Below are positions 1,431 to 64,000 of a DNA stretch of 64,000 bases, piece by piece. The position numbers and the translations under genes are program-made. Origin of the DNA: an uncultured Victivallis sp. GTDB lineage: Bacteria > Verrucomicrobiota > Lentisphaeria > Victivallales > Victivallaceae. Every line of letters begins with the position of its first letter. Position 1 is the stretch's first letter. The notes under the pieces were generated by a model, which saw nothing but the letters and a program-made list of their open reading frames with translations, ran no database searches and had not been told where the DNA came from. Location of the stretch: the NCBI RefSeq assembly GCF_944391105.1, contig NZ_CALXSK010000007.1:1-64000 (forward strand). The letters run 5' to 3'.

Positions 1431-4325
1431 CTATTTCGCCGCCTGAAATTCCGGCAGTTTTCCGTAACGTTTTTCCAGTTCCGCCCGTTCCGCCGCGGAG
1501 GCTTTCGACAGAAGTCTCCGGAAATACTCCGTCATAAACGGCTTATAGTAGGTTTTCCAGAAGCTGTGTCCAGCAGCGGCCTTCGCCGTTTCATCCGAAA
1601 AAGTTCCGGTCAGAAGATCCAGGTAAAGTGTCGGCTTCTCCAGTTTCATACGCTTTTCCAAGCGATTGACAACCAACGCATGGAGCCGCTTGTCAGCCAG
1701 ATCATACGGAACCGGCTTGTTGAGGCCGTCAACCGCCTTCACCCCTGCAGGTGAAATTCCCACAATGGTAACAAGATCACGGCCCGGCGTCTCCACGGAA
1801 AAGCTGCCGGTCGTCGGAGTAATCGTCGCAAGCTGATCGTGGAAAGCACGAATCTTCTTCACTTCTCCCGGCAGATCCGAACAGAATGAGTTGACCTGAT
1901 TCACAAGCGCCAGCTCCTCCTGACTCTGCCCGACCGGGAATGGAAACACCTGCAAATCACTGATCGCCTGCTCAAACTGCGCCGTTTCTCCCGTTCGAAT
2001 CGCCGTAAAAAACGATTCTGCGGCATTTTCCAGCAAAGGATTCAATTTCGGAACAATCTCCGCCAAACGTTTGCGTGCCTGTTCCTGTTCTTCAGCTTCC
2101 CGGCGTCGTTTCTCTTCAGCAGCAGTTCTGGCCTGTGCCTGCGCCTCCGCCTGCCGCCGTTTCTCTTCCTCAAGTTTTGCCGCGGCTTCACGCTTCTCTG
2201 CCTCTTCTGCGTTGCGCCGCTCCTGAAGTCCGGCCAGGAATTTTTTCCTCGCCTCTTCACGCGCCGGAGCTACGCGGCCACGCTCGTCAAGCAGGTTGTA
2301 AATCGGCAGATAAGAACGCAATGCCGAATTCTCCTCCGGTGTCAGAGCCGCTGGATATTTCCGGAAAAACGCATCGGATTTCTCCAGAAATCCAAGATAA
2401 TCATCCGGATTGGTGCGCCGCATCTGGAGCAGATTTTCAATTCCCGCCAGATATTCGGGCCGGGTAACCGGCTTCGGCGGCTCAGGCGGCTTCGGCGGTT
2501 CTTTCGGCCGGGAATTCTCTTTTTGCTCAACTCCCGCTTTTTCCTCCTTTTCATGGAAAGGATCACCCGGCAGAATCTCTCTCTCAGGCTCGGGCTGTTT
2601 TCCTTTTACAAGAGCAATTACCTTGTCGCCGAACGGCTTGACCGACTCCGGCAGTTTGCCGCTGACCGCGAGAAAGTAAAATACGCCTCCGAGACATCCC
2701 AATGTAATTCCAAGAAGGATGATACAAACGACAAGATAAAGAACGATCTTTCCCGCACCGGGTTTTTTCGTTTCCTCATCTTTCTCTTTTTTTCCCTTCT
2801 TTTCCCGGCCCTTTTTCTCATCCGGAGCGGGTGCTTCCGGAGCGGGTTCCTTTTTCTCCGGTTTCTGAACAACTTTCAGTGTCAGAACATCATCATCTCC
2901 GGATTTCGCACTCCCTTTCTCCGCCTCTTTTCCGGCCGGGGAAACCTGCTTCAAAACCGGTTCCGCGGCCGGAACTGCCTTCAAAACCGGTTCCGCCGGA
3001 GCAGCGGCTGCCGCGACCGGTTTTTCCTCCGGAGCAGCTGCGGCGGCGGCAGGAAGGGGCTTCCCCGCAACTGCCGCTTCCGGCGCCGTTTTTTCCCCGG
3101 AGACGGCGGCACTTGTCGTGACTGGTTGCATTTTTGCAGCTGGAGCTGGAGCTGTAGCCGCAGCGGGTTTCGCTTTCGGTACGGAAGCCGGAACGGGTTT
3201 TGCGCCCGGAACCGCCTTTACACCCCCACCGCCGGGTCCCTTGCCGCCGAACGGAGATTTTCCACCTCCAAATGGAGCTCTCACTCCGCCGCCGAACGGG
3301 GAAGCGGGTCTCGCTCCGCCTGCAGATGGTGCCGCTTTCGGCAGCCGGAAATTCAAATGCGGAACCGCATTCTTTGCCGACTGCGAATGCATGAGAAACA
3401 TGTCAAGCGCCTTGATGAGCGGTGCCGGCGTCTGGTACCGATCCTCTATATTGCGAGCCATCATTTTCATAATGATGGTGTTGAGTTCATCCGGAAGATC
3501 CGGATTCACTTCCTTCGGCGGCTGCAGATGACCCGCCACATGCATTTTGGCAATCTCTTCAGCAGTGTCCGCAACATATGGAAACCGGCCGGTTACAAAC
3601 TGATAAAAGGTCGCTCCGAGACTGTAGATATCACTCCGGACGTCGGTCGGCACACCTGTGAGCTGTTCCGGACTGATGTATTGCGGTGTGCCGAGAACCT
3701 CATCCCCTTCCGATGCCTCTTTGTCATTGATCCCGGCAACGCGGGCAAGCCCCAGATCGGCCAGCTTCGCAAAGCCGTTCGCATCAAGCATGATGTTGTC
3801 CGGCTTGATGTCCTGGTGAACAAGTTTCTCATCGCGCCACGCACATTCCAACGCACTGGCGACCTCCCGGATGATCTTGGCCGACTTGACAAAGTCAAGA
3901 ACCTTCTTCTCCTTGAGAATTTCCTTCATCGTTTTGCCACGGATATATTCCATTGCAAAATAGAAAATTCCATTTTCTTCGCCAACGGCGTATGCCTGAA
4001 CCACATTCGGGTGGTTGATGCGGGCCGCCGCACGCGCCTCCCGGAAAAACGCTTCCACATACTCCTTGTCATTCAGAAACTTCGCCTGAAGCACCTTCAA
4101 CGCTACCAGACGGTCAAGGGAGATCTGCCGCGCCAGGTAAACTTCACCCATTCCCCCTTTGCTCAGTTCCCGTTCGATCACAAATCCACCGATCACCGCA
4201 CCCGGTGAAGTCCGGGTTTCAGGATAATTTACTTTTTCCTTACAATTCGGGCATTCCACCTGACTGCCTTCCGCAGGCTTTTCAGCCTCGAACACCTTTT
4301 TGCACTTTTCGCAATATATTTTCAT
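1431..4325 (-). CDS. Zinc-ribbon, membrane-anchored Ser/Thr protein kinase
   Basis: A 964-residue Hanks-type kinase. Residues 1-30 carry a zinc ribbon (C5, C8, C25, C28). The kinase domain spans about 45-310: glycine loop KGGMGEVYLA, invariant Lys in VALKVL, catalytic loop HQDIKPDN near residue 170 and DLGLA. The usual HRD is HQD, so it is a non-RD kinase, although catalytic Asp and Asn are present. A Pro/Ala/Gly-rich linker precedes one membrane helix (about 527-556) and an extracytoplasmic Glu/Ala/Arg-rich, probably coiled-coil segment. This is the PknB-like layout of PVC bacteria, with a zinc ribbon added in front. Substrates are unknown. The start has only a weak upstream GAG as ribosome site. 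Confidence 0.85.
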   Translation of the reverse strand: MKIYCEKCKKVFEAEKPAEGSQVECPNCKEKVNYPETRTSPGAVIGGFVIERELSKGGMGEVYLARQISLDRLVALKVLQAKFLNDKEYVEAFFREARAAARINHPNVVQAYAVGEENGIFYFAMEYIRGKTMKEILKEKKVLDFVKSAKIIREVASALECAWRDEKLVHQDIKPDNIMLDANGFAKLADLGLARVAGINDKEASEGDEVLGTPQYISPEQLTGVPTDVRSDIYSLGATFYQFVTGRFPYVADTAEEIAKMHVAGHLQPPKEVNPDLPDELNTIIMKMMARNIEDRYQTPAPLIKALDMFLMHSQSAKNAVPHLNFRLPKAAPSAGGARPASPFGGGVRAPFGGGKSPFGGKGPGGGGVKAVPGAKPVPASVPKAKPAAATAPAPAAKMQPVTTSAAVSGEKTAPEAAVAGKPLPAAAAAAPEEKPVAAAAAPAEPVLKAVPAAEPVLKQVSPAGKEAEKGSAKSGDDDVLTLKVVQKPEKKEPAPEAPAPDEKKGREKKGKKEKDEETKKPGAGKIVLYLVVCIILLGITLGCLGGVFYFLAVSGKLPESVKPFGDKVIALVKGKQPEPEREILPGDPFHEKEEKAGVEQKENSRPKEPPKPPEPPKPVTRPEYLAGIENLLQMRRTNPDDYLGFLEKSDAFFRKYPAALTPEENSALRSYLPIYNLLDERGRVAPAREEARKKFLAGLQERRNAEEAEKREAAAKLEEEKRRQAEAQAQARTAAEEKRRREAEEQEQARKRLAEIVPKLNPLLENAAESFFTAIRTGETAQFEQAISDLQVFPFPVGQSQEELALVNQVNSFCSDLPGEVKKIRAFHDQLATITPTTGSFSVETPGRDLVTIVGISPAGVKAVDGLNKPVPYDLADKRLHALVVNRLEKRMKLEKPTLYLDLLTGTFSDETAKAAAGHSFWKTYYKPFMTEYFRRLLSKASAAERAELEKRYGKLPEFQAAK

Positions 4326-53525: not shown

Positions 53526-56500
53526 TTACCAGCGATAGTAGCGGTACGGATCGTCGGAGGCGATCGGCCGATCCGTGTAGAAATCGAATCTCCGGGGAAT
53601 CTTGAACTTGGGAATTCCGAGGATTCCACCGTACCGGTAGGTGTCGTTGCAGAGCACAACCAGCACATTTTTTCCGGGGCGAAGCCAATCGGAATCCACA
53701 TGATGGATGCGGGCCGCCTCCCAGTAGTTATCCGGATGGGTCTGTTTGGTGACCTCTCCGAGGAAGTGCCCGTTCAGCCAGGTCCAGGATTCATCATCAA
53801 TCGCCCCGAGGAACAGCTCAACATCGCCGGAAGAAGCAAACTCTCCGGGCAGTTCAAATTCCAGCCGATACCAGAAGAGCCCATCGTATTTCGCCAGCTC
53901 TTTGAACTGCACATCGAAATTTCCCGGCACCCGAACCGGACGCCATCTGGAATTCGGGCGGAAATCCGGGTTCATCCATCCCCGGTCGCGCCCCTCTCCC
54001 TCGGGATCGGCGATGCCGATCCAACGATCGTTCGGCAACTCGAATTTGAGATTGCCTTTCACGCCGTCGAACAGAGCGAAGAGTCCGCTTTCAAAACGTG
54101 CTCCGAGATTCGCGGCCAGACGGGAGACGAGGAAAGTCGACCGCCGCCGGGTCGTCCGGTAGTAAAACTCTTCCTCGTCGAATTTCCACGGCGGAAGCTG
54201 GCAACTTACGAAAACACCTTTCCCGTGCCGGACAATTCCGAGAGAACGTCCGCCCGCGGAATCCGGCGCAAAGGCGTCAAACTGCATTTTCCCGCGCCAG
54301 TGCAGTTCCGCGTTGCCGATTCCGGTGAACTCCGGCGTCGCGCGCAGGTTCTCCACTTGATCGGAATAATATCCGCCGGACTGGAGATGGAATTTTCCGG
54401 GCAGCATGGATTCGAGCTCTGCCTGTCCGAATCCGAGAGCGAGTACATTCAGCCCGGCAGCCACCGCGTCAGTCAGATCACCCGGCTCTGCGCCCGGGCC
54501 GAGCACCAGCAGCGTTTCCGCCGGAGTCGAACCGGAGTCGGCAGAGCGGGGAATGCGCAGCGCGTCGAGCAGAGCGGCCCCCTCCGAACCGCCCAGATAT
54601 CGCACATTCCGGGGGGCGGGACCGCGGGCGGAATCGAGTCGCTCCAATGCCCGGCCAAGCAGATCATCGGCCTGCGGCTCAATTTCCGTACGGCCTGTGA
54701 CTGCAAGCTGGCAGAACATGATCCGGCCTTTTCCCTCGACAAACTCGACCAGCGGCACATACTGCAGATCGAAACCGCACTGCAGCAGCGGATTCCAGTT
54801 TCCGACCTGCGGCTTTTCAAACAGCACTTCCGTGAGGCTGCCGCGGTTGCCGGCCCGCCAGACCCGGGTGTTGCTGAAACCGTTCCAGTCCCACTGCGGC
54901 GAGGTTGCCTCATAGGGCACAAGCGGAAAGGTTCCCGGCAGCTGAGTCGCACTGCCGCGCCAGTCCCGCAAATCTCCGCTGAAATCCGACACGGAAAACA
55001 CTTCACGGAATCCCTGTTCCGTCGTGCGCAGTCCGAGCCGGTTCAGCTCCTGCGCCGGCTGTTCGAGCACAAGGAGTTTCAGCCCGTTTTCCAGTCGCTG
55101 CGACAAATGCAGCGGAAATCCGTGCAGCGCATTGCGCCCGAGGATCAGAATCTCAATCCCGTTCAGATCGCGGTCGGAATGGACCGTACGGAACGGAATC
55201 CCGAGCCGGTTCAAAAGCAGTGAGGCTTTCCCCTCCGGATCGTAGAGACCGACTCTCGAAGCGAGTTTCACCGCAGCCTGCGCGACAAGATCGACCATGA
55301 AACGATCACAGCTTCTCCCCTGTCCCGGGAAATCGAACTCCGCCTCGAGCGCGAACTTCTCCGGTGCTCCGGCGGTCGGGATGGTGAATTCCACCGGCAG
55401 ATCGCAGCGGCCCGCGGGAGCGACGACTGTGCTGCCGCTTTTTTCGATTCCGAGGGTCGGAACTCTCCAGCGCCATTCGACTTTCGCTTCCCGACGGCTG
55501 TCGTTCAAAACCACGAGGGTTTTCCGCACGGTTTCGCCGGGGCGGAAATTGTGTCCCTCTTCGGTGATATCACCGGATTTGCCGCCGATCCAGCCGAGAA
55601 ATTCGGTGAATCCCGCGTGCACCGCCTCGCCGGTCGTATTGAGTTCGTACCTGGCAAAAGGATTGTTGATATACTCGCCGCGCGGAATCAGCAGATCCGG
55701 AACAAGTCCGGGCTGTTTCAGATTCCGGAAGCGATCGGGATTCTGCCGTACGCCCGGACCATCCGCCACCCATTTCCAGCAGAGGAACTGATCCCACGGC
55801 AGGATGCCGGAGATCCCCCTGGCGCGCAACGAGCGGAATACTCTCTGCGCATAATAGGCCCGGACACGGTTCACATCCTCGACGCGGTTCATAATGCTGT
55901 TTCCGCCGAGGGCGCTGAAAAAGGTCAATTCATTCCCCTTGATCATCTTCTCCTGATGGTCATAGAGTTTCTGTTTGGCAGGTTCGTCACGGTAGGCTTT
56001 CTCACCGAGGATTGCGGCATTGAACTCATTGGTCCACAGGCACTGCAGCCCTTTGGTCGACCAGATGAAAGAGGGACCGCGGTAACTCGACCAGCTTGCG
56101 ACGTGCGGCAGCCCCCATTCAACGAAGACGAGCGGCATCGTGCCGTTTTTCTCCCAGTTTTCGAGCCAGTCGGCCCGCTCCTGCCGCGGCGCCCAGTTCA
56201 AATAGCAGTTCAGGGTATAGACGTCGCCGATGTTGCCTCCCTCATGGTGATAAATCGGGCGGCTCGGATCGAGTTTCCGGGCGATGTTTTCCGCGAGCAC
56301 GGCCTGGGCGCGGTTCGCAAGTGCTCCATCCGGCAGAGCCTCTTCGGGTTTATAGGCGGTGCCGATCCGCATCGGATTCTGATCGCCGGAGTAACCGGTC
56401 GCGTTGTGATTCATGACCAGCATAACGACGCCTGGAACATTCTGAAAACGGCGGATCAGGTGTTCCGCCTGTCTCCGGTAGGCTGCGGCCTGTTCCGGAT

Positions 56501-58667
56501 CTTTGAGATTCGAGTTGAAATCTTTGAAATGCGGCAGAGTTAGCGAGGTCAGCATACCTCGCCGGGAAGTCCCCCGGTGAAACCCGTCGAGATAACAGAA
56601 TACGCCAGGAGAAAAACTGTAATTCCAGCCGATAAGAAAATTTGCGCCGAAACCGCGCGCGGCACGAACCAGGTGTTCGATCCAGAGTTCCGAACCGAAA
56701 TCGGCCTCCTGCGGGGTCTTGGTGACCAGCGCGCGCAAATGGATCTTCCGGCCGTTCAGGTAAAAGTCGCGACCATCGATGCAGAATTCGCGGAATCCGA
56801 ACTCCTGCGGAAGAAATTCGTCGAGCAGACCGCCCTTGTCGTCGAGCAGCCGGACTTTCGCCGTGTAGAGATTTCCCGGGGTGTCGATGTCCCAGAGCTT
56901 CGGATTTTGCCAGGCACCGCCGAACGAGTGGCGGAATCCGGGTTTCCCCGTGGAACGGAACGGTGTGGAGAGAAACCGCTTCACCGCCCTGCCGTCTGCG
57001 TCGAACAGTTCCGCCTCCAGGCGGTAGCGTCCCGCCGGCAGCGCGACAAAACCGGTGTCAAAAGTGATCGCGGCATTCTGTACCGAAGTGATAACGTGGA
57101 CGTCGGAAACCGCCGCACCGGTCGGACGCGATTCCAGGAAGAGATTTCCGGTGATGCCGCGGTTCTGCAGCGCGCTCTGGTTTTTGATGAGGCGGTCGGC
57201 CGCCATGAAAGTCGCGCTCTCCTCAGGGTTCGCGCTGACCAGAAGTGCAAGTGTCTGCTTCTTCCCGGGGATCAGTTTTCCGGTCAGATCCGCCTCGCCG
57301 CCGGGATAGTAGAACTCCCCCGCTTCGATACCGTCCACGAAAATCTTCGCGCAACTCTGGATCAAGTCGGCGGAAAGTATGATTTCCCGACCGCTCCACT
57401 CTGCAGGGACCTCGATCTCCCGGCGATACCAGGCACTGTTGAGCTTCCACGGATCAATCTCGGCCATGAGGAGCGGAGAGAGATAAAAACTCATGCCGTT
57501 GGCTGCGACCGGCCACGCCCCCGGAATTTTGAAGTATCCCCAACCCGATCCCTCCGGAGGGAGGGCCGCAATCTCCTCTTTCTGCAGAACGGGCCGGAAC
57601 TGCCAGAGTCCATTGAGGCAGATCCGTTCCCGGCTCGGAGTGGTGACATGTTCCGCATCGGCGAGCGAAAAAAGCTCCTCCACGGTCAGCCCGCCGGGCG
57701 GCGGGACATCACGATTCATTGCGGCGGGATCGTTCACGGCCTCGACCAGCAGATCGGCGAATTCCACTTTTCCGGCTGTTCCGAAGTTCGCCGGGCCGAG
57801 GGTCAGCGAGACCGCACCTTCCGGAACCGGATAGAGCCGGTCGCAATCGATCCAATCCCCCGTACCGCGTGCGCTGAAAACCTGCGGCCATTCGCCGACG
57901 CCTTTCCCGTTCCGGTCGTAAAAACGCATCGCCAGCCGGGCGTCCTGCCAGGATTCGGCGGCGGGAACGACCCCCGTGACCCGCATGCGCATCCGCACCC
58001 GCACGAACCGCTCTCCGGCTTTCAGGGGAAGAACCATGTTCAGCTGGCGATTTTCACCCTCGATCGTGATGAACCCTCTCCCGTCACGGAGTTCAGCTGT
58101 GATCCCCGCGGGAGCTTTCCCGCCCCGGAGCTTCCCCGTCCCGGGGTCGACAATCAGATTCGCAACCGGGGAGGGACGTTCGTTCACGGCCTCGACCAGC
58201 AGATCGGCGAATTCCACTTTTCCGGCTGTTCCGAAGTTCGCCGGGCCGAGGGTCAGCGAGACCGCACCTTCCGGAACCGGATAGAGCCGGTCGCAATCGA
58301 TCCAATCCCCCGTACCGCGTGCGCTGAAAACCTGCGGCCATTCGCCGACGCCTTTCCCGTTCCGGTCGTAAAAACGCATCGCCAGCCGGGCGTCCTGCCA
58401 GGATTCGGCGGCGGGAACGACCCCCGTGACCCGCATGCGCATCCGCACCCGCACGAACCGCTCTCCGGCTTTCAGGGGAAGAACCATGTTCAGCTGGCGA
58501 TTTTCACCCTCGATCGTGATGAACCCTCTCCCGTCACGGAGTTCAGCTGTGATCCCCGCGGGAGCTTTCCCGCCCCGGAGCTTCCCCGTCCCGGGGTCGA
58601 CAATCAGATTCGCAGCTGGAAGCAGCGACGCCGCGAACACGATAAGCAATGAAAAAAATTTTTTCAT
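53526..58667 (-). CDS. Giant secreted GH2-like protein with duplicated N-terminal domain
   Basis: A 1713-residue exported protein. Signal MKKFFSLLIVFAASLLPA, then two identical copies of a carbohydrate-binding-like domain (about 18-162 and 168-312). A GH2-type sugar-binding domain (ICLNGLWQFRPV, AWYRREIEVPAEW) precedes an alpha/beta barrel around 600-900. At the place of the acid/base Glu it reads VMNHNATGY near 752, with Asn where GH2 has Glu; FVEWGLPH near 847 could be the nucleophile. The C-terminus (from about 1560) is another sugar-binding module. ATG 58667 has GGAG 6 bases upstream. It is coexpressed with a pseudopilin 18 bases upstream. Confidence 0.82.
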   Translation of the reverse strand: MKKFFSLLIVFAASLLPAANLIVDPGTGKLRGGKAPAGITAELRDGRGFITIEGENRQLNMVLPLKAGERFVRVRMRMRVTGVVPAAESWQDARLAMRFYDRNGKGVGEWPQVFSARGTGDWIDCDRLYPVPEGAVSLTLGPANFGTAGKVEFADLLVEAVNERPSPVANLIVDPGTGKLRGGKAPAGITAELRDGRGFITIEGENRQLNMVLPLKAGERFVRVRMRMRVTGVVPAAESWQDARLAMRFYDRNGKGVGEWPQVFSARGTGDWIDCDRLYPVPEGAVSLTLGPANFGTAGKVEFADLLVEAVNDPAAMNRDVPPPGGLTVEELFSLADAEHVTTPSRERICLNGLWQFRPVLQKEEIAALPPEGSGWGYFKIPGAWPVAANGMSFYLSPLLMAEIDPWKLNSAWYRREIEVPAEWSGREIILSADLIQSCAKIFVDGIEAGEFYYPGGEADLTGKLIPGKKQTLALLVSANPEESATFMAADRLIKNQSALQNRGITGNLFLESRPTGAAVSDVHVITSVQNAAITFDTGFVALPAGRYRLEAELFDADGRAVKRFLSTPFRSTGKPGFRHSFGGAWQNPKLWDIDTPGNLYTAKVRLLDDKGGLLDEFLPQEFGFREFCIDGRDFYLNGRKIHLRALVTKTPQEADFGSELWIEHLVRAARGFGANFLIGWNYSFSPGVFCYLDGFHRGTSRRGMLTSLTLPHFKDFNSNLKDPEQAAAYRRQAEHLIRRFQNVPGVVMLVMNHNATGYSGDQNPMRIGTAYKPEEALPDGALANRAQAVLAENIARKLDPSRPIYHHEGGNIGDVYTLNCYLNWAPRQERADWLENWEKNGTMPLVFVEWGLPHVASWSSYRGPSFIWSTKGLQCLWTNEFNAAILGEKAYRDEPAKQKLYDHQEKMIKGNELTFFSALGGNSIMNRVEDVNRVRAYYAQRVFRSLRARGISGILPWDQFLCWKWVADGPGVRQNPDRFRNLKQPGLVPDLLIPRGEYINNPFARYELNTTGEAVHAGFTEFLGWIGGKSGDITEEGHNFRPGETVRKTLVVLNDSRREAKVEWRWRVPTLGIEKSGSTVVAPAGRCDLPVEFTIPTAGAPEKFALEAEFDFPGQGRSCDRFMVDLVAQAAVKLASRVGLYDPEGKASLLLNRLGIPFRTVHSDRDLNGIEILILGRNALHGFPLHLSQRLENGLKLLVLEQPAQELNRLGLRTTEQGFREVFSVSDFSGDLRDWRGSATQLPGTFPLVPYEATSPQWDWNGFSNTRVWRAGNRGSLTEVLFEKPQVGNWNPLLQCGFDLQYVPLVEFVEGKGRIMFCQLAVTGRTEIEPQADDLLGRALERLDSARGPAPRNVRYLGGSEGAALLDALRIPRSADSGSTPAETLLVLGPGAEPGDLTDAVAAGLNVLALGFGQAELESMLPGKFHLQSGGYYSDQVENLRATPEFTGIGNAELHWRGKMQFDAFAPDSAGGRSLGIVRHGKGVFVSCQLPPWKFDEEEFYYRTTRRRSTFLVSRLAANLGARFESGLFALFDGVKGNLKFELPNDRWIGIADPEGEGRDRGWMNPDFRPNSRWRPVRVPGNFDVQFKELAKYDGLFWYRLEFELPGEFASSGDVELFLGAIDDESWTWLNGHFLGEVTKQTHPDNYWEAARIHHVDSDWLRPGKNVLVVLCNDTYRYGGILGIPKFKIPRRFDFYTDRPIASDDPYRYYRW
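57730..58164. repeat. 435-bp direct repeat, copy 2
   Basis: Identical base for base to 58180-58614. It encodes the second copy of the N-terminal domain. The start-to-start offset is 450 bp, a multiple of three, so the frame is kept. Confidence 0.95.
58180..58614. repeat. 435-bp direct repeat, copy 1
   Basis: Identical to 57730-58164, with 15 bases between the copies. It encodes the first domain after the signal peptide. Confidence 0.95.
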
Positions 58668-58685
58668 GAACATCTCCAAATTCCG

Positions 58686-59586: not shown

Positions 59587-60744
59587 ATGAAACACATTCT
59601 CTGCGCCCTGATGGAACCGAACGAGGAGATTCTGAGACCGATTTACGAATATGGCCGGGAACACAACTGGCAGATCGAACGATGCGGCCGGCAGATTCCC
59701 GGCCACTGGTCGGGGGACGGGATCATTTCGGATTATCTGGAGCTGCCGGATTTTGCAGCGGTCATGGACTTCAAGTCGACTCCGACGGTGTCGCGACTGC
59801 TGCCGCCACGGGAAAACATCCGTACAATCCGCCCGGATACGCAGCAGATCGCCGGAATGATCGTCGACTATTTCATGGACAAGGGTTTTACGAGATTCGC
59901 GACCGCGGCATCGAAAATCTTCCCGGAAGATATCGACGGCAAACCCCGGGATGTGCTCATGGCCGTGCAGCATGAGCTTGAATCGCGTGAACTCCAGCTC
60001 TTCAGTTGTCTCTGGGAGGGATGGCTGCCGAGAGCCGACTGGAATGATTATCACAAACGCCGCAAGCTGCTGCGCCGTTTTTTTTCTGAAATCCCCCGCC
60101 CGTTCGCTCTCATTCTCTCGGCAAGCACGGTGCTGCCGATCATCTACCGGACGCTGGAGGAACTCGGATTGCGGGTTCCGGAAGAGGTCTCCGTACTCTG
60201 CAATACCGATGACTGGAACGTGACCGAAAACGCAATGGTGCCGACCTCCTACGTCAGCGGCGAATTTCCGGTGCTCGGCCGCAAACTGCCCGAACTTCTC
60301 GACCGGATGATGGCTGGCGAGAAGATTCCCGAGGAGCCGATTTATGTGACTCCCTCCTCGATCATCTCGCGGCGCAGCACCGATTCACTGGCGGTGACGG
60401 ATTTCCGACTGGCCAAAGCCGTCGGATTCTTCCTCCAGAATTACATGAATTTCATCGGAGTGGAAGACGCCGCGCGCATTGCAGGCGTCTCCCGCGGAAT
60501 GCTGATCCGGCTGTTTCAGCAGCAGTTCGGCAAGGGGCCGCGCCGGTTTCTGCAGGAGATCCGCATGAATCAGATCCGTCATCTGCTCGACGGAACCGAG
60601 TTGCCGCTTTCGGAGGTGGCGCGCCGGGTCGGGTATGGTTCCGACATGGCGCTCTCGCTGGCGTTCAAGCGGGAAACCGGCATGGCTCCCGGTGCCTACC
60701 GGATGTTGCGGCGCCATGCTCCGCAGAAACACGATCCGGCGTGA
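59587..60744 (+). CDS. XylR-type AraC-family regulator
   Basis: A 385-residue protein. The N-terminal 270 residues form a LacI-like sugar-binding domain (RFATAASKIF, RTLEELGLRVPEEVSVLCNTDDWN). Residues 280-380 are an AraC double HTH (VEDAARIAGVSRGMLIRLFQQQFGKGP, LPLSEVARRVGYGSDMALSLAFKRETG). This is the architecture of E. coli XylR. Divergent from the pseudopilin-GH2-like operon, so it probably activates it in response to a released sugar. Confidence 0.9.
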   Translation: MKHILCALMEPNEEILRPIYEYGREHNWQIERCGRQIPGHWSGDGIISDYLELPDFAAVMDFKSTPTVSRLLPPRENIRTIRPDTQQIAGMIVDYFMDKGFTRFATAASKIFPEDIDGKPRDVLMAVQHELESRELQLFSCLWEGWLPRADWNDYHKRRKLLRRFFSEIPRPFALILSASTVLPIIYRTLEELGLRVPEEVSVLCNTDDWNVTENAMVPTSYVSGEFPVLGRKLPELLDRMMAGEKIPEEPIYVTPSSIISRRSTDSLAVTDFRLAKAVGFFLQNYMNFIGVEDAARIAGVSRGMLIRLFQQQFGKGPRRFLQEIRMNQIRHLLDGTELPLSEVARRVGYGSDMALSLAFKRETGMAPGAYRMLRRHAPQKHDPA

Positions 60745-60751
60745 TGCCGTC

Positions 60752-61900
60752 TCATCCCTGCGTCGGAACTGCGATCTGCGACTGGAGTTTCACGGCTTCG
60801 CGCAGGTCGCCGACCAGAATGCAGCCGACAAGACGGTCCGCTTCGTCATAGAAACGTTTTTGGAAAGTTCCGGTCGCGGCGTCCTGCGTGGTTTCGCTGC
60901 GCGCGCCCGCAAGTTTTCCGGCGGAGAAGAGTTTTATGCCGAACACCGAGAGCCGGGCCGGATACGCCTGCGGTACGAACGGCTGTTCCTCCCCGAGCAG
61001 ATTGTGTGCGGCGACGGTTCCCATCGACCGGGCGGCGTCGTAGAGTCCGTAGGAGGCTCCTTCCACTTCGGCGCAATCTCCCGCCGCGTAGATGTCCGCG
61101 ATTCCCGTGCGCAGGAATCGGTCGGTCACGATTCCGCGGTTGCACGGAATCCCGGCCGCCGCGGCGACTTCGATGTTCGAACGTACTCCGGCGGAGACCA
61201 TGACCAGATCCGCTTCGTTTGTTCCGTCCTGGAGCGTCACGCCGGTGGCTTTTCCCGCTTCTCCCGCAATTGCTTCTACCCGGCAGCCGAACCGGAGCGT
61301 CAGATTTTCAATTTCGCCGAGCTTCTTCAGGACGAATCCGGCGGCTTCCTCGTCGAGGTTGCGCGGCAGCAGCAGCGGAGAACCTTCGAACACCGTGACG
61401 AGACAGCCGCGCTCAAGCAGGCTCTGCGCAAGCTCGAGCCCGAGCAGTCCGCCGCCGATGACCGCGGCATTTTTCACCCCCGCATCGAGACGTGCGCGCA
61501 GTTTCTGAAGATCAGCGTATTCGCGCAGGGACATCACGCCGTCAAGATCCATTCCCGGCACCGGCGGGTAGAAGCAGTGCGAACCGGTCGCAAGCAGCAG
61601 CCGGTCATACGTCGATGGAGAGCCCGAGTCGAACGTGAGGGTTTTCGTGTTCGGGTCAATCGCACGAAGCGTGCGCCCGAGTTCGAGACCGATCCGGTTC
61701 TCCGCATAGAATGCGGCCGGCTTGATGAAGAACTGCGCGTCGGCAAGCTCTTCTGCAGCCATACGCGACAGTGCCGGTCTCCGGTAGGGGGGCACCGCCT
61801 CGCGACTGTAGATCGTGATTTCCGCATCGTCCGAAAGGGTGCGGATGTTCTTTGCCGCCTCGAATGCGGCGACGCCGCCGCCGATGATCGCGATTTTCAT
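60752..61900 (-). CDS. FAD/NAD(P)-dependent oxidoreductase (rubredoxin/nitrite-reductase N-like)
   Basis: A 382-residue pyridine nucleotide-disulphide type reductase. Two dinucleotide-binding motifs: IIGGGVAAFEAAKNIR at the N-terminus and AAVIGGGLLGLELAQSL in the middle. FAD-binding GIADIYAAGDCAEVEG comes later. The pattern is that of NADH:rubredoxin reductases and the NirB N-terminal domain. It likely passes electrons to a small redox protein not found here. The GGAGG ribosome site is clear. Convergent with the XylR-type gene. Confidence 0.85.
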   Translation of the reverse strand: MKIAIIGGGVAAFEAAKNIRTLSDDAEITIYSREAVPPYRRPALSRMAAEELADAQFFIKPAAFYAENRIGLELGRTLRAIDPNTKTLTFDSGSPSTYDRLLLATGSHCFYPPVPGMDLDGVMSLREYADLQKLRARLDAGVKNAAVIGGGLLGLELAQSLLERGCLVTVFEGSPLLLPRNLDEEAAGFVLKKLGEIENLTLRFGCRVEAIAGEAGKATGVTLQDGTNEADLVMVSAGVRSNIEVAAAAGIPCNRGIVTDRFLRTGIADIYAAGDCAEVEGASYGLYDAARSMGTVAAHNLLGEEQPFVPQAYPARLSVFGIKLFSAGKLAGARSETTQDAATGTFQKRFYDEADRLVGCILVGDLREAVKLQSQIAVPTQG

Positions 61901-61972: not shown

Positions 61973-63682
61973 ATGGAAGAACTTCATTTTTTCAGCGATT
62001 ATATCGCAAAGAAATACGGAGGGAAACGCCACCGGATCGGCATCGACCTCGCGCTGGGCTGTCCGAACCGGTTGAACCGGTTCGGGCCGGGCTGCGTCTA
62101 CTGCGCCGAGGACGGGAACCGGGCACGTCATCTCGCGCGCCATCTCGACCTCGCCGGGCAGGTCGAGGCGGGAATCCGGTTCGTGACCGACCGTTATGGA
62201 GCGACGGCTCCTTACATCGCCTATTTTCAGGCGTTCACTTCGACCTATGCGCCGGTGGAAACTTTGCGGAAACTTTATGGCGAGGTGCTTGCGCTTGCTC
62301 CGTTCGCGATCGTGATCGTCGGGACGCGCCCCGACGCTCTGCCGCCCGGGACGGTCGATTTTCTCGCGGAACTTGCGCGCGATTACGAGGTATGGGTCGA
62401 ACTCGGCGTCCAGAGTGCGCACGATTCGACGCTGGAGCTGATCCGGCGCGGTCACGATTTCGCGGCGGTGGAGGATGCCGTGCGGCGGCTCGACGCGGCC
62501 GGGATCCGGGTCGGCTGTCACATGATTGCGGGACTGCCGGGGGAGGATCGCGCGATGTTCCTGGAATCCGCGCGCCGCATTGCAGTTCTGCCGTTCCGGG
62601 CAGTCAAGCTCCATCCGCTTCTGACGCTGAAAGGGACGCCGCTCGCGTCGCCCGATTTTCCGGTCAAGCCCGCCGGACTCAACGAGTACGAGTACGCCGA
62701 CTGGATCGGCGGATTTCTGCGCGAACTGCCGGAAGAGTGGCTCATCATGCGTCTCACGGCCGAGGCGGAGCCGGAGCGGATCATCACGCCGCGCTGGTGG
62801 ATGTCCAAGAGCCGTTTTCTCGATTTCTTCCGGGAACAGTTCCGGAATCCCCCCTCGAACGGCGGGTTCGCGGGGGTCACGACCGGCGACGGTTCGCCGA
62901 CGCTCTACCATCCCGGATTCCGTCAGCATTTTCATTCGCTCGCGGGAGCGGCGACCGAGGCGGAGCGGAAGTTCGTTCAGCCGTCCCGGCTGCGGGAACG
63001 GCTCGCCGGCGGGAAACCGGTCCGCGTGCTCGACATCGGGTTCGGGCTCGGGACGAACTGCAGTGCAGCGTTGCGCTGTGGGGGAAACTGCGAAATCGTC
63101 ACACTCGAGAACGATCCGCGCGTTCTGCATGCGGCCCGCGGACTTTATCCTTCGGAAAGCCTTGAATTCCGCCTCGTCGAAGCGCTCGCGCAGACCGGGT
63201 GTTTTGTAGAAGGCGAAGGCCGGGTCGAACTGCTCTGCGGCGACGCGCGCGATAGGGTCTCCCGGCTTGAACCGGGGAGTTTCGACGTGATCTTTCAGGA
63301 CGGCTTTTCGCCGGACTGCAACCCGGAGCTGTGGAGCTATGATTTCGTGCGGCAGCTCGCGCGATTGCTGAAACACGACGGCGTGATCGTGAGTTACTGC
63401 AGTGCGTTTCCGTATCGCGGTGCGCTTTTGCGGGCTGGACTTGCGGTCGGGGAGTCGGAGCCGTTCGGCCGCAAGCGCGGCGGTACGGTCGCGGCGTTCG
63501 ATCCGGCGCTGCCGCCGCTGCCGCTCCCGGAGAAAGAGCGCGGCATCATCCTGCGCTCGACCGCCGGAACCGCCTACCGCGACCCGACGCTCGCGGGGAG
63601 CCGCGAGGAGCTCTTCCGCCGCCGTGAAGCCACCGTCGCCCGCCTCCGCCGCCGCGGCGTCCCGAAGTGGTTCAAGGCATAA
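61973..63682 (+). CDS. Fusion of TIGR01212-type radical SAM protein and MnmC-like methyltransferase
   Basis: A 569-residue two-domain protein. The N-terminal radical SAM half has cluster Cys C30, C41 and C44 (CPNRLNRFGPGCVYC), as in the YhcC/TIGR01212 family, plus VELGVQSAHDSTLELIRRGH. From about 310 on is a DUF752/MnmC-type methyltransferase: GDGSPTLYHPGFRQHFHS, VLDIGFGLGTNC near 355 and FQDGFSPDCNPELW. The latter acts on tRNA wobble uridine in MnmC. The start ATG follows AGGAA; a much longer frame reaching back to 60635 is antisense to other genes. queA follows convergently. Confidence 0.87.
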   Translation: MEELHFFSDYIAKKYGGKRHRIGIDLALGCPNRLNRFGPGCVYCAEDGNRARHLARHLDLAGQVEAGIRFVTDRYGATAPYIAYFQAFTSTYAPVETLRKLYGEVLALAPFAIVIVGTRPDALPPGTVDFLAELARDYEVWVELGVQSAHDSTLELIRRGHDFAAVEDAVRRLDAAGIRVGCHMIAGLPGEDRAMFLESARRIAVLPFRAVKLHPLLTLKGTPLASPDFPVKPAGLNEYEYADWIGGFLRELPEEWLIMRLTAEAEPERIITPRWWMSKSRFLDFFREQFRNPPSNGGFAGVTTGDGSPTLYHPGFRQHFHSLAGAATEAERKFVQPSRLRERLAGGKPVRVLDIGFGLGTNCSAALRCGGNCEIVTLENDPRVLHAARGLYPSESLEFRLVEALAQTGCFVEGEGRVELLCGDARDRVSRLEPGSFDVIFQDGFSPDCNPELWSYDFVRQLARLLKHDGVIVSYCSAFPYRGALLRAGLAVGESEPFGRKRGGTVAAFDPALPPLPLPEKERGIILRSTAGTAYRDPTLAGSREELFRRREATVARLRRRGVPKWFKA

Positions 63683-63692
63683 GCTGAGAGAC

Positions 63693-64000
63693 TCACTTCA
63701 GGAGCATGCAGTCGCCGTAGCTGTAGAAGCGCATCTTTTCGCGGATCGCGAGCTCGTATGCCGCAAGCACTTTCTCGCGGTCGCAGAAGCACGAAACCAG
63801 CATGAGCAGCGTGCTCTTCGGCAGATGGAAGTTCGTCAGCAGCAGATCCACCGCCCGGATCCGATAGGGCGGATAGAGGAAAATCCGAGTATTGCCGTGG
63901 GCGGGATGAACGGTTCCATCCGGATCGGCGCAGCTTTCGAGCGTCCGCACGGTTGTGGTTCCGACCGCGAGCACGCGCTTTCCCGCCGCGTGGGTCGCGT
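63693..64000 (-). CDS. queA: tRNA preQ1(34) S-adenosylmethionine ribosyltransferase-isomerase, C-terminal part
   Basis: The last 101-102 residues of QueA; the front lies beyond the window. [44 protein letters not shown] and the closing [10 protein letters not shown] are the family's hallmark C-terminal segments. It makes epoxyqueuosine in the tRNA wobble position. It ends 10 bases from the convergent radical SAM-methyltransferase, so two genes with tRNA wobble links lie side by side. Confidence 0.93.

Follow-up and report, generated by a model that had tools for sequence, protein, structure and literature searches.

The fusion gene and its surroundings

The window, a 64,000-nucleotide stretch of DNA from an uncultured Victivallis sp., contained close to its 3' end a gene coding for a radical SAM domain and a methyltransferase domain in one chain (Table 1). 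The first-pass annotation had described a TIGR01212 radical SAM domain fused to a DUF752 methyltransferase, and this architecture was borne out: the 569-codon open reading frame was free of internal stops, and both domains were found in it by profile search. The ATG at 61973 was also the point from which close relatives aligned and is therefore the likely start of the gene. The frame remained open 5' of this ATG as far as contig position 60569, apparently a chance effect of GC-rich DNA.

Table 1. Position of the fusion gene, its domains and motifs, and the flanking genes
Feature	Position	Strand	Extent and basis
MnmL-MnmC2 fusion gene	61973..63682	+	569 aa plus stop; ORF and translation
Radical SAM (TIGR01212/MnmL-type) domain, including Radical_SAM_C	61973..62848	+	aa 1-292; TIGR01212, PF04055, PF16199
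[4Fe-4S] cysteine motif C30-x10-C41-x2-C44	62060..62104	+	invariance in alignment
Linker between the halves			about aa 293-299; short
MnmC2/DUF752 methyltransferase domain	62870..63679	+	aa 300-569; PF05430, NF033855, 3VYW
SAM-binding loop DIGFGLG	63032..63052	+	aa 354-360; counterpart of the E. coli MnmC Gly66-Gly70 loop
MnmC2 active-site motif DGFSPDCNPELW	63299..63334	+	aa 443-454; D443 corresponds to E. coli Asp-178 by alignment
queA	63693..64769, running past the window end (63693..64000 inside)	-	convergent with the fusion gene
FAD/NAD(P)H oxidoreductase, rubredoxin/ferredoxin-reductase type	60752..61900	-	PF07992, PF18267; divergent from the fusion gene

The radical SAM half matched TIGR01212, which carries the NCBI name MnmL/YtqA, with 239 bits (curated cut-off, 180 bits) over aa 5 to 292, corresponding to positions 3 to 291 of the 302 in the model. 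Within it, Pfam located Radical_SAM (PF04055) at aa 29 to 202 and Radical_SAM_C (PF16199) at aa 210 to 288. Cysteines 30, 41, and 44 were invariant in 42/42 fused and 17/17 stand-alone TIGR01212 sequences, as were Q63, Y84, Q86, T118, R119, D121, E143, R159, K212, H214, and R260. The closest solved relative was Elp3, and Foldseek agreed when run on an AlphaFold model of moderate quality (built from 7 sequences; pLDDT 73, pTM 0.63) in which aa 29 to 56, the cysteine loop included, were poorly modelled. Elp3 is a radical SAM enzyme that modifies U34; among solved folds, its archaeal and bacterial structures (6IA8 and 5L7J) were the best match to the N-terminal half. Nevertheless, the fusion protein differs from Elp3 in scoring far below the cut-off of the Elp3 profile TIGR01211 (41.6 versus 350 bits) and in having no acetyltransferase domain.

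In the methyltransferase half, PF05430 (Methyltransf_30/DUF752) was matched at aa 414 to 508 with 95 bits, against a gathering score of 22. The match to NF033855 (MnmC2) at aa 312 to 507 reached 99.5 bits and stayed under the equivalog-domain cut-off of 136, as did that of a stand-alone relative from family f23 (113 bits); the half is therefore called MnmC2-type here rather than an NCBI equivalog. The MnmC2 of Aquifex aeolicus (3VYW) was the best solved relative (aa 287 to 537, E = 4.6e-37). Together with 2QY6, it was also the top Foldseek match for this half of the AlphaFold model, with other MnmC structures likewise scoring high. In E. coli MnmC, Gly66-Gly70 form the SAM-binding loop and Asp-178 is the proposed base activating the amine of nm5U, a residue said to be conserved without exception in MnmC2, whether bifunctional or stand-alone (PMC3648344). 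Both elements were retained in the fusion, with G358 and G360 of the loop and D443 and W454 of the active-site motif invariant in all 42 fused sequences. The position taken as E. coli Asp-26, aligned by eye, was Gln or Glu in the fusions. No MnmC1/DAO domain was detected on the fusion protein by Pfam and NCBIfam scans.

Both flanking genes were compared across about 40 loci, most of which extended only about 1.5 kb past the match. QueA adjoined the fusion in the window genome and its two closest relatives and at no other locus compared. Thus, the first-pass annotation was right that queA lies next door, but as functional evidence the adjacency did not stand, the gene being convergent and present there in just these three close relatives; queA is probably not functionally linked to the fusion. 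In 14 genomes from the family of the window genome, the divergent oxidoreductase gene was the immediate upstream neighbour of the fusion. As an idea only, its product could be an electron source for the [4Fe-4S] cluster. Elsewhere in the window (53526-58679, - strand), a 1,717-aa protein was encoded with a near-identical tandem duplication of ~150 residues at its N terminus.

Distribution of the fusion and its pathway context

A sample of 241 genomes of the phylum was searched. TIGR01212 was found above the cut-off in 59 genomes, and in 47 of these, spread over 11 family codes, MnmC2 was on the same gene. All but one of the 47 fusions lay on a single contig, three of them with a stop inside the last aligned stretch. 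The remaining one (G195) was split exactly at two contig ends, the radical SAM half at the end of C8 and the methyltransferase half at the end of C112. Independent assemblies likewise contain the fusion, as does the isolate Victivallis vadensis DSM 14823, at 68% identity. This recurrence across families, including an isolate genome, rules out an assembly or frameshift artefact, and the MnmL-MnmC2 fusion is genuine.

Twelve of the 59 genomes had TIGR01212 without a fused MnmC2. In family f23, the unfused TIGR01212 and MnmC2 genes were separate and co-occurred in 5/6 genomes. Two genomes (G112 and G217) had a radical SAM domain of the fusion clade with no MnmC2 detected, and in five genomes of families f14 and f44, TIGR01212 occurred alone and grouped with Bacteroidota proteins. 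One further genome (G190) had MnmC2 and no TIGR01212 above the cut-off. Hence, the first-pass annotation's alternative, that the two domains are unlinked in all relatives, was contradicted by the 47 fusions; unlinked pairs were confined to f23, and solo radical SAM genes to a few other genomes. Viral contigs yielded no relatives of the fusion. Plasmid records yielded stand-alone TIGR01212 or MnmC2 only, and nowhere was 80% of the fusion covered. One such record was the 4.7-kb plasmid pSR1 of Selenomonas ruminantium, on which a TIGR01212 gene directly follows a B12-binding radical SAM gene. In the tree, the pSR1 protein and a homologue from Acetoanaerobium lie together on a long branch, so the pSR1 protein may have a different role.

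In phylogenetic trees, the fused radical SAM domains and their unfused close relatives formed one group (support 100/100), apart from Firmicute MnmL, YhcC, and the Bacteroidota proteins. The best tree weakly preferred placement with a Bacteroidota/Verrucomicrobiota group (support 74/85). AU tests of alternative placements gave p = 0.24 for the fused domains with Firmicute MnmL and p = 0.058 with YhcC; on these sequences, grouping with MnmL would be possible and grouping with YhcC marginally disfavoured, though also possible. The TIGR01212 family takes in E. coli YhcC, from an organism possessing MnmC1, so membership of the family alone is no proof of MnmL activity. The label MnmL is accordingly given to the radical SAM half for its family score, pairing, and gene content, and not because it descends from an enzyme that has been tested. 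In the unrooted methyltransferase tree, the stand-alone f23 domains clustered together near a fused clade, which is compatible with one old fusion that was later split in f23.

The enzymes acting upstream were present in the window genome, where MnmG (737 bits), MnmE (340 bits), and MnmA (281 bits) all exceeded their cut-offs. MnmG was likewise found in 45/47 fusion genomes, the two exceptions (G050 and G127) being fragmented assemblies. MnmM (PF06962) had no match in the window genome or in any other fusion genome. The best match to MnmC1 (TIGR03197) in the window genome, at 70.8 bits, fell short of the 174.2-bit cut-off, and no fusion genome had MnmC1 above the cut-off. Across the sample, MnmM was present in 38/241 genomes with zero overlap with the 47 fusion genomes, an exclusion that is confounded by clade. 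MnmC1 exceeded the cut-off in four genomes of family f10, where it was fused to MnmC2, and none of the four had TIGR01212 above the cut-off. These co-occurrence patterns are partly clade effects rather than independent events. Seventeen genomes of family f1, genus g3 (e.g., G016, G022, and G031) kept MnmG with TIGR01212, MnmC2, and MnmM not above threshold, and their tRNA may therefore stop at cmnm5U.

Predicted reaction and alternative readings

In the characterized pathway, MnmEG makes cmnm5U, MnmC1 oxidizes its Calpha-N bond with FAD so that hydrolysis gives nm5U, and MnmC2 methylates nm5U (PMC3648344). The first-pass annotation had called the function of TIGR01212 poorly known. That description was outdated, an assignment of MnmL having been made in 2024: in a table entry and a reference, a 2025 review (PMC12548931) names MnmL and MnmM, giving MnmL as an alternative to MnmC for nm5s2U and crediting Jaroch et al. 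2024.

The fusion protein is best read as a bifunctional enzyme, at a probability of about 0.8, whose radical SAM half converts cmnm5(s2)U34 to nm5(s2)U34 and whose MnmC2 half converts the latter to mnm5(s2)U34. The assignment of MnmL to this step was reportedly made by genetics, and no in vitro dissection of the MnmL reaction is known to us. In the predicted scheme, in which the tRNA substrate, the radical chemistry, and the order of steps are all putative, MnmE and MnmG would make cmnm5(s2)U34 in tRNA, the 2-thio group being contributed by MnmA. The N-terminal domain would bind a [4Fe-4S] cluster on C30, C41, and C44 and generate a 5'-deoxyadenosyl radical. It would take the place of MnmC1 by abstracting hydrogen at the same position, so that the glycine-derived CH2 of the carboxymethylaminomethyl group would be oxidized and the C-N bond broken, giving nm5(s2)U34 with glyoxylate as the other product. 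With a second SAM, the C-terminal domain would then methylate the amine to give mnm5(s2)U34. Such an oxygen-independent step would suit anaerobes.

Support for the pairing came from outside the phylum as well. In Anoxybacillus and Enterococcus, MnmM (NF053511, 245 and 236 bits) comes immediately after the TIGR01212 gene, overlapping or abutting it, so the partnership of TIGR01212 with an nm5U methyltransferase recurs. In E. coli, yhcC lies between gltB and arcB with no methyltransferase partner there. The first-pass annotation had suggested that the radical SAM half may modify wobble uridine in tRNA. Action of both halves on this nucleotide is the best-supported explanation, and it agrees with the independent assignment of MnmL.

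Of the other readings, the one that retains most weight, though it is unlikely, gives the radical SAM half a YhcC-like role. It would catalyze a different reaction at the same or another tRNA position, while the MnmC2 half would act alone on nm5U34 made by MnmEG with ammonium, the fusion serving co-expression only. TIGR01212 does include YhcC, from an organism in which MnmC1 already performs the step; the trees accommodate either subgroup for the fused domains; and PMC3936742 describes nm5U as arising directly from MnmEG with ammonium. Gene content argues the other way, since every fusion genome was without MnmM and without MnmC1 above the cut-off, the genomes with MnmC1-MnmC2 had no above-threshold TIGR01212, and TIGR01212 adjoins MnmM in Firmicutes.

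Far less probable is a role in the queuosine pathway, in which the fusion would methylate the chemically similar 7-aminomethyl amine of preQ1 at G34 rather than the amine at U34. The neighbouring queA and the joining of MnmC2-type domains to Tgt elsewhere in the phylum fit this reading. Against it, queA is convergent and adjacent in no more than three genomes, all closely related; in the methyltransferase tree, the Tgt-linked domains stood apart on a long branch of their own (2.89 changes per column); and the nearest match of the fused methyltransferase is Aquifex MnmC2, which is assigned to mnm5U34. No literature on methylated preQ1 was found. The Tgt fusions nevertheless bear on the first-pass argument that fusion is strong evidence for a shared substrate: its wobble-uridine conclusion is the best supported, but the joining of MnmC2-type domains to an enzyme of G34, not U34, in the same phylum counsels caution about the argument itself.

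Equally improbable is direct decarboxylation of cmnm5U to mnm5U by the radical SAM half, with the methyltransferase serving only those tRNAs that carry nm5U from MnmEG and ammonium; radical decarboxylation of the glycine-derived arm would be chemically possible and E. coli MnmEG is described in PMC3936742 as yielding both cmnm5 and nm5 products, but an intact methyltransferase has stayed fused across 11 families, and in Firmicutes the partner of TIGR01212 is MnmM, which methylates nm5s2U. Because the methyltransferase half is kept intact, the radical step of the proposed bifunctional enzyme would release nm5U.

Relation to known enzymes and other domain pairings

The predicted enzyme combines features of several known systems. 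With Gram-positive MnmL/YtqA and its partner MnmM, it shares the radical SAM family, the cysteine motif, and an nm5U-type methyltransferase as partner. It differs in that MnmM is unrelated and encoded by an adjacent gene, whereas here the partner is MnmC2 in the same chain; the two radical SAM proteins are about 34 to 36% identical, with the fused half in its own clade. Aquifex MnmC2, the best match in sequence and fold, stands alone, whereas its counterpart here is fused to a radical SAM domain. In E. coli MnmC (MnmC2-MnmC1), as proposed here, the methyltransferase is fused to the maker of its nm5U substrate. There, however, this is an FAD amine oxidase at the C terminus, whereas in the fusion it is a radical SAM domain at the N terminus and MnmC1 is absent; MnmC uses FAD and oxygen, and the fusion would perform the same steps without oxygen.

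The fusion extends known biology, both halves coming from families already tied to the pathway, and is not a new kind of system. If the reading is correct, one protein would carry cmnm5U to mnm5U from end to end, and mnm5(s2)U would be predicted for a large set of bacteria, most of them uncultured. A single chain for the radical and methylation steps would also give independent support for the MnmL assignment beyond Gram-positive bacteria. A broader claim, somewhat less likely to be right than wrong, is that much of one phylum uses an undescribed variant of the wobble-uridine pathway, in which both MnmC steps are replaced by an oxygen-independent radical SAM enzyme and MnmC2 in one chain, perhaps supplied by the divergently encoded NAD(P)H oxidoreductase. 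All four pairings of the two steps would then exist: the fusion, MnmC1 with MnmC2 and an MnmC1-like oxidase with MnmM in the same phylum, and MnmL with MnmM in Firmicutes. The fusion itself suggests that the two wobble-uridine steps are exchangeable modules. The abstract of Jaroch et al. 2024 (J Bacteriol) reportedly mentions fusion proteins and alternate arrangements, and the MnmL-MnmC2 fusion may already have been recorded there. The words "fusion" and "radical" do not occur in PMC9976899.

Other joined or adjacent pairs were observed in the sample. In G224, a 553-aa protein (L131:1532-3190, +) fuses a DAO-type FAD oxidase (PF01266) to MnmM (NF053511, 188.7 bits) and is a third way of joining the two steps. 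A separate DAO-type oxidase gene directly preceded MnmM in G128 (L141:1993-3159 and 3075-3746) and G173 (L132:3234-2083 and 2171-1530), and by coordinates the same order was found in G001, G039, G066, G108, G205, and G229. These oxidases resemble MnmC1/ThiO and fall under the MnmC1 cut-off, which suggests that MnmM has an MnmC1-like partner in these genomes.

Tgt, the queuosine tRNA-guanine transglycosylase, acts on G34. It carried an MnmC2-type methyltransferase at its C terminus in G085 (L134:154-2226, +) and G088 (L150:1716-3830, -). A domain scan of these two frames gave TIGR00430 at 442 to 452 bits together with NF033855/PF05430, and the active-site Asp was kept. One idea is that the Tgt-fused domain methylates the aminomethyl group of preQ1 at G34. 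PF05430 was also matched in open frames of 677 to 733 aa in G045, G075, G098, G102, G125, G140, and G161.
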